Of a stretch of DNA of 64,000 bases, positions 41,200 to 63,214 are shown piece by piece. Position numbers and translations under genes: made by a program. The notes under the pieces were generated by a model. It saw nothing but the letters and a program-made list of their open reading frames with translations, was not told the origin of the DNA and searched no databases. Source of the stretch: Opitutia bacterium. Lineage in GTDB: Bacteria; Verrucomicrobiota; Verrucomicrobiia; Opitutales; Opitutaceae. Position 1 is the stretch's first letter, and every line of letters starts with the position of its first letter. The stretch lies in contig JACRHT010000017.1 of the NCBI GenBank assembly GCA_016217545.1, positions 868,001 to 932,000 of the forward strand, written 5' to 3'.

Positions 41200-41216
41200 G
41201 TCACCTAATCGGTGAC
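41200..41216. repeat. TAAT-core palindrome
   Basis: GTCACC-TAATC-GGTGAC, 6-bp arms, in the gap before the MBL gene. Related to the palindrome at 53642-53666, which has a perfect GTCACCTAATAGGTGAC core. Confidence 0.6.
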
Positions 41217-46716: not shown

Positions 46717-48243
46717 ATGGCCAACGCTCCCATTCCCGTCACCGTCCTCACCGGCTTCCTCGGCGCCGGCAAAACCACGCTGCTCAACCGCATCCTCACC
46801 GAGCAGCACGGCAAGAAAATCGCCGTCATCGAAAACGAGTTCGGCGAAGTCGGCGTCGACAACCAGCTCGTGATCCAGAGCGACGAGGAAATCTTCGAGA
46901 TGAACAACGGCTGCATCTGCTGCACCGTGCGCGGCGACCTCCTCCGCATCCTCGCGCGCCTCATGAAGCGCAAGGACCGCCTCGACGCCATCCTCATCGA
47001 AACCACCGGCCTCGCCAACCCCGCGCCGGTCGCACAAACCTTCTTCACCGACCCGGAGATGCGCGAGCAGTTCTCCCTCGACGGCATCGTCACCGTCGTC
47101 GACGCGAAACACATCCTGCTCCACCTCGACGACTCGCCCGAAGCGCTCAAGCAAGTCGCTTTCGCCGACGTCATCCTGCTCAACAAGACCGACCTCATCA
47201 CGCCCGCCGAACTCGACGCGCTCGAGCAACGCCTCCGCCGCATCAATGCCGTCGCGAAAGTCTACCGCGCGCAAAACGCCGCCGTCCCGATCGACCGCGT
47301 GCTCAATCTCGGCGGTTTCAAACTCGAGCGCGCCGTCGAAGTCGACCCGCAGTTCCTCGAGATGGAATACCCCTTCGAGTGGGCCGGCGGCTACGAACTG
47401 CAACCCGGCGAACACGAACTAGAGATCGGCCACGATCCCGCCGAAGCCGACGAGCACGACTGCGGCCACGACCACGATCACGGCGACCACGCGCACCACC
47501 ACCACGGCGAACACGATCACGAGTGCGGTCCCGACTGCGGCCACAACCACAACGAACTCGATGTTGTCGTTCTCCCTGTAGCCGGGGTCGTTGACCCCGG
47601 TTGGCCAGGCTCAGCGAGCCCGGCTACAACCGCTGCTTTCGAGAAAGTCATCCACGAGGTCGTCCAAGTCTTCTCCGACTGGGAAAACATCGTCCTCCCC
47701 GGCGAGCCGCTCATCGTCGGCTCGAAACTCAACCGCCTCAAACTCGCCAACGAATACGGCAAGTTCCGCCTCACGATCCCCGCCGCCGGCCGCTATCTGC
47801 TCTTCACCGGCCACGACGTCCCCACGCATCTCTATGCTGTAGCCGGGGTCTCCGACCCCGGCCCGGGCTCAACGAGCCCGGCCACAGAGCCACGCTTCCT
47901 CCGCTACGCCTGGGACCGCACCTTCCGCCACGAACACTCGCACGACGAAGCCGTCTCCTCCGTCGGCATCAGCGTCCCCGGCGACCTCGACGGAAAGAAG
48001 CTCAACGACTGGATCTCGAACCTCCTCCAGAAACACGGCGGCGACATCTACCGCATGAAGGGCGTGCTCTGCGTGAAAGGCACCAACAAGCGCCTCGTCT
48101 TCCAAGGTGTGCACATGCTCTTCGACGCGAAGTTCGACCGCGAATGGCAGCGCGACGAAAACCGCACCAACACCCTCGTCTTCATCGGCAAAAACCTCGA
48201 CCGCGCCGCGTTGACCGAAGGCTTCAAAGCCTGCCTCGTCTGA
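46717..48243 (+). CDS. CobW/COG0523-family metallochaperone GTPase with two REP insertions
   Basis: A 508-residue G3E GTPase. Walker A is GFLGAGKTT (13-21), the metal-binding CxCC is NGCICCTVR (C66-C69), and the guanine specificity motif is LLNKTDL. A His/Asp/Cys-rich metal-binding linker spans about 243-285 ([19 protein letters not shown]). The C-terminal CobW domain follows. In-frame REP palindromes encode [17 protein letters not shown] (about 288-304) and [16 protein letters not shown] (about 375-390), interrupting the C-terminal half. The family delivers or inserts metals such as zinc or cobalt. Preceded by the six-unit heptamer leader. Confidence 0.9.
47578..47627. repeat. REP palindrome inserted in frame in the CobW-type gene (copy 1)
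   Basis: A 50-bp element starting GTAGCCGGGGTC and ending CCCGGCTAC, with an inner CCGGGGTC/GACCCCGG stem and an outer GTAGCCGGG/CCCGGCTAC stem. Read as GTA GCC, so its TAG is out of frame. Confidence 0.88.
47839..47885. repeat. REP palindrome inserted in frame in the CobW-type gene (copy 2)
   Basis: GTAGCCGGGGTCTCCGACCC and continuing to GAGCCCGGCCAC, the same family as copy 1. The reading phase is the same as copy 1, giving the parallel peptide VAGVSDPG. Confidence 0.85.
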
Positions 48244-51962: not shown

Positions 51963-53642
51963 ATGCATCCGTCTCCGCGCGCTTCACTCCGTCCGCTCCA
52001 GCACGCTCTCTCGCTCGGTCTCGCCACGTTGCTCATCCCGGCCGTCGAAGCGCAGGTTCAAATCACCAGCACCGTCACTGTGCCCACCGACCAGTCCTCG
52101 CCTTGGGACATCGGCAACGATCTCTACGTCGGATTCATCTTCACGGACGGCACGCTGAACATCCAGAGCGGCAGCGCGGTCACTAACACCTACGGCTACA
52201 TCGGCTACGCCGCGAATGGCACCGTCAACGTCGACGGCGCCGGCTCGACTTGGACGAACCTCAACGAACTCAGATTGGGCAACTACTACTCTAGCATCGG
52301 TCAGCTCAACCTCACCGGCGGCGCCACCGCCTCCGCGGACTTGACGGTTTTCGGCACCGCCTCAAGTAACTCGCAGGGCAAAATCTCGATCGACGGCCCC
52401 GGTTCGTCGTTCACCACCGGCTACTTCTACCTCGGTGAGTCTGGCTCCGGCTCACTCTCCGTCACCGGCGGTGGCACGTTCGCCACCACTGTCACCTGGA
52501 CGTCGAACCACGTCGGCCATAACGCGGGTTCTAGCGGCGCGATCACTGTCAGCGGCACCGGCTCCACCTTCACCAACGCCAGCGACCTCTTCCTCGGCTC
52601 CAGCGCCACCGGCACGATGACCGTCGCCGACGGCGCCCACGCCAGCAGCGCCCGCTACACCTATCTCGGCTACCAAAACGACGGCACCGGCACACTCACG
52701 GTCAACGGCACCGATGCGGTCTACACGGCCCACGACTACATCTGGAACGGATACAACGGCAACGGCACCCTCATCGTGAAAGACGGCGGCGCGATCAATT
52801 TCGACTCGGGCTCCACGCAGCGCGTCATCCAACTCGGCGTCAACAGCGGCAGCTCCGGCACGCTCAAGATCGGCGACGGCGGAGCCGCCGGCACCATCGC
52901 AGCCGCCATTGCCGGTGGCTCCGGCACCGGGCAAGTGGTTTTCAACCACACCGGAGCGGTCGGCGGCGGCACCTACATCTTCGCCTCGACGATCGAGGGA
53001 GGAATCGACGTCGTCCATCGCGGTCCGGGCGCCACGTCCCTCACCGGCGCCAACACCTACACCGGCAGCACCACGATCGAGGACGGCACGCTGCTCGCCA
53101 ACAACACCACCGGCTCGGCCTTCGGCTCCGGCAGCGTCACCGTCCAAGCGGGCGCCACGCTCGGCGGTAGCGGTTTCATCGACGGTCCCACCACGCTCGA
53201 GTCCGGCGCCCACCTCGCGCCCGGCAACTCGCCCGGCACGCTCTCGTTCACCAACGGCCTCACGCTCAACGATGGCGCCGTGCTCGATTTCCAACTCGGC
53301 ACCACCAGCGACCTCATTCGCGTCAGCGGCGGCACTCTGACCGGCTCCGCCTCCGCCGGCGGCATCACGCTCAACCTCAGCAACGCCGGCGGCTTCACCG
53401 CCGCCAGCTACACGCTCTTCGATTTCTCCGGCGCCACCACCAGCAGCTTCACCGCCAGCGACTTCATTCTCGGTTCCACGGTCAGCGGCTACACCTACTC
53501 GCTCGCCCTCGTCGGCTCCACGCTCCAACTCACCGCCGTCCCCGAGCCCGCCACCACCGCCGCCCTCCTCGGTGCCGCCGCTCTGAGCCTGGCCGCCTAC
53601 CGCCGTCAGCGCCGCGCGTCGGTCCAGTCGCGCGCCGCCTGA
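51963..53642 (+). CDS. autotransporter-type beta-helix PEP-CTERM protein
   Basis: A 559-residue secreted protein. The body consists of 20-30-residue beta-helical repeats with Gly/Thr/Asn/Ser turns (GTVNVDGAGSTWTNLNELRLG; GSLSVTGGGTFATT; TGTMTVADGAH). The autotransporter-associated beta-strand motif is TSLTGANTYTGSTTIEDGTL. The C-terminal sorting signal is AVPEPATTAALLGAAALSLA then YRRQRR. Probably a surface adhesin or structural protein anchored through exosortase. The N-terminus is a weak signal peptide (HALSLGLATLLIPAVEAQ) after a basic stretch. Confidence 0.9.
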   Translation: MHPSPRASLRPLQHALSLGLATLLIPAVEAQVQITSTVTVPTDQSSPWDIGNDLYVGFIFTDGTLNIQSGSAVTNTYGYIGYAANGTVNVDGAGSTWTNLNELRLGNYYSSIGQLNLTGGATASADLTVFGTASSNSQGKISIDGPGSSFTTGYFYLGESGSGSLSVTGGGTFATTVTWTSNHVGHNAGSSGAITVSGTGSTFTNASDLFLGSSATGTMTVADGAHASSARYTYLGYQNDGTGTLTVNGTDAVYTAHDYIWNGYNGNGTLIVKDGGAINFDSGSTQRVIQLGVNSGSSGTLKIGDGGAAGTIAAAIAGGSGTGQVVFNHTGAVGGGTYIFASTIEGGIDVVHRGPGATSLTGANTYTGSTTIEDGTLLANNTTGSAFGSGSVTVQAGATLGGSGFIDGPTTLESGAHLAPGNSPGTLSFTNGLTLNDGAVLDFQLGTTSDLIRVSGGTLTGSASAGGITLNLSNAGGFTAASYTLFDFSGATTSSFTASDFILGSTVSGYTYSLALVGSTLQLTAVPEPATTAALLGAAALSLAAYRRQRRASVQSRAA

Positions 53643-53731
53643 ACTGTCACCTAATAGGTGACAGTTTCTCGCACGCGCCAGAGCGAGAAACTCCCGCCGC
53701 ACCGCCCGCTGAGTAACCTATTAGGTTACTC
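53642..53731. repeat. three consecutive palindromes in a convergent gap
   Basis: AACTGTCACCT-AAT-AGGTGACAGTT (53642-53666, 11-bp arms) overlaps the stop codon of the upstream gene. GTTTCTCGC/GCGAGAAAC follows (53664-53691, 9-bp arms), then GAGTAACCT-ATT-AGGTTACTC (53711-53731, 9-bp arms). All three can form hairpins and lie between two convergent genes. Confidence 0.85.
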
Positions 53732-53745
53732 GCCCGATCACTCGC

Positions 53746-54606
53746 TCACCGCGCCAGCGCCGGATAGGTGAACAGGAAAAAGTGCAGCGCGTTCAGCGAC
53801 CAGTGCGCGAGCACGCTCGCCTCGACGCGCTGCGTCCGCTCGTAAACCCAGCCATAGCCCGCGCCCGCCACCGTCGCGAGCGCCACGTATTTCCAACCGC
53901 CCGCCGCGTGCGCGAGGCCGAACGTCACCGCGCCGACCGCCAGCGCGAGCCAGTTGCCGCCGCGCCGCTGCGCCCACGCTCGCCGCAACCCGCCTTGCAC
54001 GAACCCGCGGAACAGCGCCTCCTCCGCCGTGCACGTGAACAGCAAATTCACCGCCAGCCACAGCGGCGCCTCCGCCGGCAGCTTCGGCGCCCAGCGCACG
54101 TAGCCGAGCGCGAACGATCCTGCCAACACGACCGCAATCGTCAGCGGTGCAATCTTCGCGACCTCGCCCAGCACGCTGCGCCCCTCGCGCGCCGAGCCCA
54201 CGCGCGCGTGCGCCAGCCCGAGCAGCGCGAGCGCGATCAGTGTCTTGTCGAAATTCACATAGAGCGAAAACGGCACCGCATCCGGCGTGAACCGCACCGG
54301 CCCGATCACGCGCGGATTCGCGAAGCCCGGCATTCCGTGCGTCATCAACGCCACCGCCGCCACCAGCACGATGCCTGCCTCCAGTCCCCGCCGACCGCGC
54401 GGCGCGCCGCCATCGCTCGCCCACAAGTGCGCGGCCCAGAACCACACGACGGCCACGCACGCGCCGGTCGCGTCGAGCGCGCCCGCCCACCACGACACAC
54501 CGAGCGCGGCCACCGTGATCCACTGCCACGCCGGCCGGCCGAACCACACGCCCGGTAGCCACAACGCCGCCACCGCCACTGCCAGGAACGCGCACGCCAA
54601 CATCAT
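53746..54606 (-). CDS. CPBP-family intramembrane metalloprotease
   Basis: A 286-residue membrane protein with about eight helices. The conserved motif EEALFRGFVQGGLRRAW carries the EExxxR of CAAX/Abi-type proteases. Two His-bearing helices follow (GLAHAAGGWKY and VLAHWSLNALHFFLF), giving the His and Asn metal or substrate ligands. Substrate unknown. Two adjacent ATG codons (54606 and 54603) are possible starts. Convergent with the beta-helix gene. Confidence 0.9.
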   Translation of the reverse strand: MMLACAFLAVAVAALWLPGVWFGRPAWQWITVAALGVSWWAGALDATGACVAVVWFWAAHLWASDGGAPRGRRGLEAGIVLVAAVALMTHGMPGFANPRVIGPVRFTPDAVPFSLYVNFDKTLIALALLGLAHARVGSAREGRSVLGEVAKIAPLTIAVVLAGSFALGYVRWAPKLPAEAPLWLAVNLLFTCTAEEALFRGFVQGGLRRAWAQRRGGNWLALAVGAVTFGLAHAAGGWKYVALATVAGAGYGWVYERTQRVEASVLAHWSLNALHFFLFTYPALAR

Positions 54607-62017: not shown

Positions 62018-63214
62018 GTGGCCAATCCACCGCCGCCTCCGACCGTCCCGCAGATCTTCCTCGCCGCGCTGCGCCTCGGTTGCACGTCGTTCGGCGGACC
62101 GGTCGCGCACCTCGCCTACTTCCGCCGCGACTACGTCGAGCGCCGCCGCTGGATCGACGAGGCGCACTACGCCGACCTCGTCGCGCTCTGCCAATTCCTC
62201 CCCGGCCCCGCGAGCAGCCAGACCGGCTTCGGTCTCGGCTACCTCTGGCGCGGCTGGGCCGGCGGGATCGCCGCGTGGCTCGGCTTCACGCTGCCGAGCG
62301 CCGCGCTGATGACGGCCTTCGCGCTCGGCACGGGACAACTCAGCGCGCTCCTCGGCACCGGCTGGCTGCACGGCCTCAAACTCGCCGCCGTCGCCGTCGT
62401 CGCCCAAGCCGTGCTCGCGATGTGGCGCACGCTCGCCCCCGACACCACGCGCTCCGCCCTCGTGCTCGCCAGCGCCACCACGCTGCTGCTCGCACCCGTC
62501 GCGTGGATGCAGTTCGCCGTGATCGTCGCCGGCGCTGCCATTGGCGTCGCGTGGCTCCATCGTGACCGCACCGCGAAGCCGCAACGCCCCGCCGCAGCGT
62601 CCGCGCTTCCGTCCTTCCGCGCTTCCGCGATTTTTCTGGCGGTATTCCTCTGCCTCCTCGTCGCGTTTCCGGCAATTTGCCGTAATACGGCAAATTGGCC
62701 TGCGGCGTTGGCGGACAAATGCTACCGCGCCGGCGCGCTCGTCTTTGGCGGCGGCCATGTCGTGCTGCCGCTGCTGCAGCGCGAGTTCGTCGCAACGGAC
62801 GGCGTCACGGCGGAGCAATTCCTCGCCGGTTACGGCGCGGCGCAGGCGATGCCGGGACCGCTCTTCACGTTCGCTGCCTTCCTCGGCGGGACCACGCACG
62901 GCATCGCCGGCGCGGCGTGGGCCACGCTCTGGATTTTTCTTCCCGGCCTGCTGCTCGTCGCCGCCGCACTGCCCTTCTGGCAAACGCTCCGCACCGATCC
63001 GCGCGCGCAAGCCGCTCTGCGGGGCGCCAACGCCGCCGTCGTCGGCCTGCTGCTCGCCGCGCTCATTCACCCGATCGGCCGCGCGGCGCTCGGCGATTGG
63101 CGCAGCGCGGTGCTCGTCGCCGCGGCGTTCATCGCGCTGCTCGTGCCCCGCGTGCCGGCGTGGGCCGTCGTGCTCGCCTGCGCAGTCACAGCGCAACTTA
63201 TCGGACTCGCTTAA
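62018..63214 (+). CDS. chrA: long-form chromate transporter ChrA, palindrome in the interdomain linker
   Basis: A 398-residue protein with two CHR domains. The first has SFGGPVAHLAYFRRDYVERR and FLPGPASSQTG, the second VFGGGHVVLPLLQREFV and AMPGPLFTFAAFLG. The domains carry paired helices and export chromate with proton antiport in the characterised members. The linker between them contains CRNTANWPA, encoded by a perfect palindrome (62673-62697). GTG at 62018 is chosen since earlier in-frame codons would translate the decamer tract. Confidence 0.9.
   Translation: MANPPPPPTVPQIFLAALRLGCTSFGGPVAHLAYFRRDYVERRRWIDEAHYADLVALCQFLPGPASSQTGFGLGYLWRGWAGGIAAWLGFTLPSAALMTAFALGTGQLSALLGTGWLHGLKLAAVAVVAQAVLAMWRTLAPDTTRSALVLASATTLLLAPVAWMQFAVIVAGAAIGVAWLHRDRTAKPQRPAAASALPSFRASAIFLAVFLCLLVAFPAICRNTANWPAALADKCYRAGALVFGGGHVVLPLLQREFVATDGVTAEQFLAGYGAAQAMPGPLFTFAAFLGGTTHGIAGAAWATLWIFLPGLLLVAAALPFWQTLRTDPRAQAALRGANAAVVGLLLAALIHPIGRAALGDWRSAVLVAAAFIALLVPRVPAWAVVLACAVTAQLIGLA
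62673..62697. repeat. TAAT-core palindrome inside chrA
   Basis: CAATTTGCCGT-AAT-ACGGCAAATTG, 11-bp perfect arms, in frame at about residues 219-227. It shares the AAT centre and CC..GG flanks of the 53642 palindrome. Confidence 0.85.

Follow-up and report, generated by a model that had tools for sequence, protein, structure and literature searches.

Palindromes that bracket a gene and recur as dispersed copies have been tied to the RAYT transposases. Dispersed palindromic sites of one DNA-binding protein are known from MatP-matS, ParB-parS, and Noc, and these are conserved more widely. The palindromic elements of Rickettsia are not known to have a partner gene. The features of REP/RAYT and REPIN systems compared here are drawn from three reports (PMC2817692, PMC3116915, PMC3733652), in which the GI REPINs of P. 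fluorescens are described as doublets at 71 bp. The last of these records GTAG repeats in O. terrae, and TAATA has no occurrence in its main text (PMC3733652).

The palindromes from which this analysis started lie in a 64-kb stretch, the window (C17:868001-932000; G+C content, 67.6%), of the genome G000 (5.09 Mb, 17 contigs). Others like them are scattered through the genome, and together with the gene for a small, fast-changing protein, here named PAH, these palindromes appear to evolve as one seemingly new system.

Palindromes with a common TAATA centre

All four palindromes that the earlier note had reported from the window, CTGTCACCTAATAGGTGACAG, GAGTAACCTATTAGGTTACTC, GTCACCTAATCGGTGAC, and CAATTTGCCGTAATACGGCAAATTG, were recovered where it had placed them. 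The first two form a pair, 67 bp apart, that sits between convergent genes and adjoins both stop codons. CTGTCACCTAATAGGTGACAG (53644-53664) has the core GTCACCTAATAGGTGAC (53646-53662) and extends to a perfect palindrome at 53642-53666. This palindrome shares its first base, 53642, with the end of the stop codon of the gene before it, a forward-strand gene with a PATR motif (52029-53642). GAGTAACCTATTAGGTTACTC (53711-53731; core GTAACCTATTAGGTTAC, 53713-53729) lies 14 bp from the stop codon of an Rce1-like gene on the reverse strand (53746-54606). Between the two, 16 nt beyond the first core, the forward strand reads CAGAGCGAGAA (53679-53689), which fits the consensus of a box, CNGAGYGRRAR. 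The third palindrome, GTCACCTAATCGGTGAC (41200-41216), is a single, weaker copy flanked by two co-directional genes; its arms comprise six pairs around a five-base centre, TAATC, that is not itself perfectly palindromic. The fourth, CAATTTGCCGTAATACGGCAAATTG (62673-62697), has the form TTTGCCG-TAATA-CGGCAAA and is read in frame as AICRNTANW within chrA, a forward-strand gene (62018-63214) with two chromate transporter stretches. Arms of 12 bp occur in the window only at 53642-53666 and 62673-62697, and none longer than 11 arose in three first-order Markov simulations of the window.

A further element, GCCGGGGTCTCCGACCCCGGC (47842-47862), is by sequence of the CCGGGGTC type, which, as GTAGCCGGGGTC..., adjoins a Y1 gene in L043; it looks like an ordinary REP/RAYT repeat, separate from the TAATA family.

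The window copies fall into two arm families, GTMACC (the pair and GTCACCTAATCGGTGAC) and TTTGCCG (CAATTTGCCGTAATACGGCAAATTG), that have the TAATA centre in common. The earlier note had proposed a conserved centre between differing arms, and this held in a larger sample. When 800 kb of G000 was searched for odd palindromes that are perfect over arms of 8 or longer, TAATA was the most frequent centre (15 of 56), followed by CGACG (13). Family A, GTMACC-TAATA-GGTKAC (GTNACCNAATNGGTNAC), has 62 strict copies in G000, against none for a reversed-pattern control, and 38 of these form 19 pairs, 45 to 67 bp apart. Family B, TTTGCCG-TAATA-CGGCAAA (AATTTGCCGTAATACGGCAAATT, up to three mismatches), to which the chrA palindrome belongs, has nine sites in the same genome, its control again giving none. 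Perfect palindromes centred on AAT or ATT were also found in a P-type ATPase linker, in 13 of 107 sequences (10 with TAATA and 3 with CAATG; 0.09 expected), three of the 13 being repeated sequences that probably come from the same genomes (L251/L188, L254/L189, L258/L190). The arms at this linker vary widely (GTAACC, GTCACC, CTTGCT, GTCATA, ATGCCG, GTCACG, and GTAATC). With the centre kept and the arms differing in this way, A and B look like two members of a single superfamily. The palindromes flanking PAH genes, described below, have the same kind of centre.

Family A is unevenly distributed: none of the 62 copies in G000 lies in C17:1-816,000, and the first 1.7 Mb of C1 in a second genome, G007, holds 4 of that contig's 24 loci (p 0.003, post hoc). 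A role as a chromosome macrodomain site was considered and set aside; in the single-contig genome G032, copies are widely spread.

Placement relative to genes

In the stretches examined with a custom gene caller, 65 sites with at most one mismatch could be placed: 29 were flanked by co-directional, 20 by convergent, and 2 by divergent genes, and 14 fell within a gene. Grouped by hand into 33 loci, co-directional, divergent, and convergent positions numbered 18, 2, and 13, compared with 19.2, 9.7, and 4.1 expected by length (p 3e-6). That divergent genes so seldom have a site between them speaks against ordinary promoter operators. Copies within genes are all read in the single stop-free frame and encode peptides such as [SG]N[PL][LI]GY; this common frame is forced, because the remaining frames contain TAA or TAG.

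PAH, a small protein encoded between palindromes

Clustering of the proteins encoded near the sites in six genomes yielded, besides orthologous neighbours, one small recurrent protein, PAH. It was called in five of the six, where its gene has palindromes on both sides or, in G032, a pair next to it; in the sixth, G007, it is present as an open frame between palindromes. PAH has about 120 residues, with a basic stretch (RR.RG.T.RPG), TPLWN, and a half resembling a helix-turn-helix (HTH). The best YdaS profile match had an E value of 1e-4, and 21 of 28 members matched at 0.1 or below. In the members checked (three in one search and two in another), every Pfam and NCBIfam model stayed below its curated cut-off, YdaS and HTH_3 included, and the YdaS and HTH_3 matches span only the HTH-like half. 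Profile matches to PDB entries were marginal (best E value, 0.008, to DUX4; a Cro protein, 0.05). PAH is probably a DNA-binding protein, its similarity to Cro/YdaS-like HTH proteins being weak.

PAH was found in 30 of 95 genomes searched (G000 included), all of one family, and in none of the 34 outside that family. Among 387 genomes of the phylum, 22 had matches, of which 17 were strong and all within the family, which is apparently Opitutaceae, and 5 were weak, partial, and outside it. Searches of the open-licence literature in PMC listed no description of TAATA palindromes or of a PAH-like gene in Opitutaceae. One genome, G242 (3.0 Mb), has eight PAH matches and would lend itself to the matching of arms to recognition helices. 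Viral carriage of PAH was considered and rejected: no member occurred in viral contigs, six members gave no PADLOC match, and PHROG matches were weak.

Palindromes centred on AAT or ATT stand on both sides of 34 of 51 PAH genes, on one side of 9, and on neither side of 8, the figure for control windows being 29 of 935. One mismatch was allowed within 260 bp of the gene, and a few of the palindromes counted (e.g., L323, L331 upstream, L357 downstream) are likely to have matched by chance. Out of 64 listed places, the genes examined were taken from all 30 loci and from 20 chosen stretches, the latter contributing 21 genes, with six partial HMM matches left out (three in L324 and one each in L318, L339, and L342). 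The stop codon of a PAH gene in G000 overlaps a palindrome, and the start codon of one in G006 directly follows a palindrome. G000 has four PAH genes, associated with GTMACC, TGTTCG, and TTTTGCG arms and, at C17:1217719, with none; this last, one of the eight unbracketed genes, has on either side inverted copies of TTGCTTAATAGGAACATTGGC that are not themselves palindromic. At the TTTTGCG locus, the PAH gene of G007 has AATTTGCCG on both sides, with the same arms as the chrA palindrome. The nine family-B sites of G000 retain TTTGCCG, although its own PAH gene at that locus stands between TTTTGCG palindromes.

The proteins themselves have diverged. At the three loci that G000 and G007 share, PAH is 67, 66, and 58% identical; of the neighbouring genes there, five are 95 to 97% and two are 88 to 89% identical. 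In two further comparisons (L346/L348 and L347/L349), DNA that is otherwise 85 to 91% identical in two species holds differing PAH genes and palindromes, as if by cassette swap or very fast divergence.

Arm type and PAH lineage

On the whole, arm type tracks PAH lineage. The protein tree groups the arm types GTAACC, GTCAAC (in three genera), and GTAGTC, and TGTTCG, TTGCCG, and ATGGCG are among the arms of a further clade, which belongs to the window's genus; genes with GTCACG and GTAACG arms are dispersed over the tree, and the G032 gene with GTCACC arms stands apart. Across 42 genes, PAH distance correlated with arm distance (Mantel r, 0.335, reached by none of 5,000 permutations), which indicates coinheritance rather than recognition, because common descent alone could produce it.

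Among the 61 genomes of the family, at least five copies of family A were found in 16 of 30 genomes with PAH and in 3 of 31 without (Fisher test, 0.0003). These last are G030, G033, and G043, with five to eight sites and no PAH found. Family-A copies are likewise present in G015, G054, and G012, although the arms at the PAH genes examined in them are of a different type, and in G049 and G057, although no cognate palindrome was found at their PAH genes.

We put to the test the prediction that genomes with a PAH gene bracketed by GTNACG arms are rich in GTNACG-TAATA palindromes. At least eight copies occurred in 6 of 8 genomes with such a gene and in 2 of 53 without. The matching genomes have 41 (G039), 35 (G018), 21 (G038), 18 (G054), 12 (G022), and 4 copies (G009), with G040 (8 copies) and G010 (3 copies) added from the genome coordinates of their PAH genes and GTNACG sites. 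The two exceptions, G032 (20 copies) and G034 (18 copies), have no GTNACG-bracketed gene among the PAH genes found there. G045, with a GTNACG-type PAH whose palindromes have a TATTT centre, has no strict copy and was not counted as GTNACG bracketed.

Pair spacing and a proposed dimeric DNA-binding protein

In G000, G007, and G018, the last of which has arms of a different type, 48 distances are below 150 bp; 44 of them are between 40 and 75 bp, and every one of the 44 belongs to one of three classes, 45 to 48, 52 to 56, and 65 to 68 bp (14, 14, and 16 distances, respectively); G001, G006, G032, and G034 were left out of this tally. Spacing is looser in G032, where one of eight family-A distances below 300 bp falls within these classes, and in G034, with two of seven below 400 bp. 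The box CNGAGYGRRAR (at most one mismatch, 14 to 16 nt after one palindrome) was found in 13 of 23 pairs of the 65- to 68-bp class, a count obtained on the very sequences on which the motif had been defined, compared with a mean of 0.08 and a maximum of 2 in 1,000 shuffles. It occurred in 2 of 19 pairs of the 52- to 56-bp class and in 1 of 6 of the 45- to 48-bp class. Arm type and spacing can change while a site persists: beside an epimerase gene, the pair is spaced by 66 bp in G000, 54 bp in G007, 54 bp in G006, and 45 bp in G004. The G004 pair has other arms, neither PAH nor a strict family-A copy having been found in that genome, and G011 is empty at this position.

From these patterns we infer, with a probability of roughly 45%, that the palindromes are sites of PAH acting as a homodimeric HTH protein and are paired and bridged on one face of the DNA. 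PAH homodimers would bind the palindromes, and each PAH gene, bracketed by its own type, would probably be autoregulated; the same type would recur elsewhere, at most in tens of copies, for the most part downstream of genes or in the linkers of proteins. The arms would be read by the HTH, and the TAATA centre would be contacted or bent by a part common to all PAH proteins, possibly the basic RR-RG-T-RPG stretch that precedes the HTH. Spacings of about 45, 54, and 66 bp correspond to 4.3, 5.1, and 6.3 helical turns, so that two dimers could share a DNA face and bridge, and the box between the palindromes might be bound by a further subunit or partner. A change in PAH specificity would then be followed by both arms of its sites. 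Such a protein would account for most of the pattern, namely, the symmetry, the arm types, the nearly constant centre, and the helical spacing in three genomes.

A possible mobile origin of the palindromes

Because the layout and the doublets equally recall REP/RAYT and REPIN, a mobile origin is a serious rival, and one that we regard as quite possible if short of probable. The palindromes would be REPIN-like, selfish or domesticated mobile elements, in which the pair with its box is the mobile unit, PAH is a specificity factor, cutting is provided in trans by a host or Y1 enzyme, and single palindromes are relics. Besides the gene between inverted repeats, this explanation draws on the range of family-A copy number within one genus, from 0 to 62, and on protein linkers. 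In a TrmA-like gene, the linker measures 39 nt in four species (G004, G009, G003, and G011) and has an extra 96 to 183 nt in five, with pairs in G000, G007, G001, and G002 and a single palindrome in G006. Across 12 species, this gene has four empty sites, four pairs, one single, one GTAG-type REP, one other repeat, and one site with nothing recognisable. Some copies also match past the palindrome. The long arms of G034 (GGCCATCGTGTAACC...GGTTACACGATGGCC; L215-L228) are followed in some copies by further likeness, which extends, for example, over 107 bp at 89% in L216/L224 and perhaps reflects recent spread. A conserved interior and near-identical copies would mark an insertion sequence or MITE, and on this point the likeness in G034 and the interiors of the G000 pairs (below) point in opposite directions.

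Repeats of other kinds also occupy protein linkers, in L052 and in the TrmA-like genes of G005, G006, G008, and G010; their peptides are NSQLSTLNS, NPKSKIQN-like, and SAVSG-like, and a ctctcaactctc tract was seen as well.

Against mobility stand the interiors of 22 pairs in G000, which are unrelated to one another (two matches at E values of 0.01 or less, of 14 and 12 nt), and the stability of the sites. Within 400 kb of synteny, a counterpart at or within about 100 bp of the corresponding position was found for five of six loci in G000 and five of five in G007. The chrA palindrome is identical in G000 and G007. The earlier note had expected the chrA linker to differ in length in relatives without the palindrome, an expectation that failed: in a comparison that left out the orthologues of G006 and G010, the linkers of G001 and G002 lack the palindrome and equal that of G000 in length. 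Linker length therefore gives no sign of an insertion into chrA, and insertion was rejected on this ground; either the palindrome formed where it now lies, or G001 and G002 lost it by decay.

The families matched by PAH include neither Y1 nor any other transposase family. G000 also holds Y1 genes with other palindromes, and an origin from RAYT was rejected, since none of its 10 Y1 loci has a family-A palindrome (fewer than three mismatches) within 1.5 kb. Tags within 8 nt of the core on either strand in G000, G007, and G006 were GTAG in 0 of 124 copies and CGTC in 9 of 124.

Compensating changes in the arms

The earlier note had suggested that the arms compensate for each other's changes, and this was borne out. 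At arm positions 6 to 12 of orthologous sites, 10 compensating double changes were counted, compared with a permutation mean of 2.3 and maximum of 9 (5,000 permutations), alongside 11 one-sided and 3 other double changes. The set consisted of 13 sites at 11 loci in G000, G007, and G006, with orthology shown by the flanks and a total offset difference of at most 3; looser orthologue pairs were left out. Within the 17-base core, 9 of 221 positions had changed, compared with 173 of 624 in the flanks, a low figure that is partly due to site selection, because at most one core mismatch was required on both sides; position 6 and the outer arms were unconstrained. Within genomes, three positions paired more often than in shuffles in G000, G007, and G006, namely, position 6 of the core and positions 9 and 10 of the outer arms; position 11 did so in G000 and G007 (p 0.07 in G006) and position 12 in G000 only. 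A compensating double change is seen, for example, at L087/L136, where GTCACC/GGTGAC faces GTAACC/GGTTAC between flanks that are otherwise alike.

Much of the arm symmetry would follow if each site were bound by a symmetric dimer, with no need of a hairpin. Pairing of the outer arms within one genome is not predicted by a dimer that reads each half-site separately, and the joint change of both arms is not explained by a dimeric binding site. A further reading is self-rewriting recognition: a fast-changing HTH family and its palindromes throughout the genome would coevolve, and sites would be converted in place, both arms at once, to the type of the protein then present, by a directed process rather than by transposition or selection on point changes. 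We think this unlikely.

The earlier note had further read the conserved centre and compensating arms as selection for structure rather than sequence. In that form the reading was not borne out: the arms are not arbitrary sequence kept by pairing alone but recur as discrete types that broadly track the lineage of a neighbouring gene, so that arm sequence probably matters too. It seems quite improbable that the hairpin itself is functional, as single-stranded DNA or as mRNA stem-loops with an AAT loop (terminators or mRNA stabilisers) whose arms are free to covary. Each of the four palindromes in the window is predicted to form a stable DNA hairpin (z, -5.6 to -6.8), the outer arms pair beyond the core, and many sites follow stop codons or lie between convergent genes, all of which would suit such a role. 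At orthologous sites, however, the centre flips between AAT and ATT, the orientation of copies relative to genes appears mixed by eye, the window pair has no U-tract, arm types track PAH lineage, and helical spacing classes would be unexpected for RNA. Very improbable is a purely mutational origin, in which template switching in quasi-palindromes perfects the arms without selection, for it would fit the compensating double changes amid like flanks and the unchanged chrA length but leaves unexplained the fixed TAATA centre, the recurrence of arms at dispersed loci, the spacing classes, and the PAH gene.

Comparison with known systems

A REP/RAYT-like layout around another, unrelated family of proteins would show that a transposase is not required for it. 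Dozens of natural combinations of arm sequence and recognition helix would then be available for decoding within one bacterial family, and what maintains REP-like repeats would become testable with a partner only about 120 residues long.

The likeness to REP/RAYT and REPIN systems comprises dispersed palindromes whose types are specific to a lineage, a gene that stands between inverted copies of its own palindrome, and doublets. In both cases, palindromes favour positions behind genes, some are read in frame within proteins, and complementary changes occur. In contrast to REP/RAYT, the TAATA system has no GTAG tag and no Y1/HUH transposase, its partner being the HTH-like PAH; its palindromes are perfect, their conserved part is the A/T centre, and they come in several spacing classes with a box inside the pair. 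Whereas the sites of MatP, ParB, and Noc are more widely conserved, TAATA arms change between species and paralogues, and the sites are often paired and bracket a gene. The Rickettsia palindromic elements, named in PMC3733652, are likewise read in frame within proteins but belong to another lineage. Among DNA-binding proteins, YdaS, HTH_3, and Cro-like proteins resemble PAH through weak profile matches, confined for YdaS and HTH_3 to its HTH-like half.
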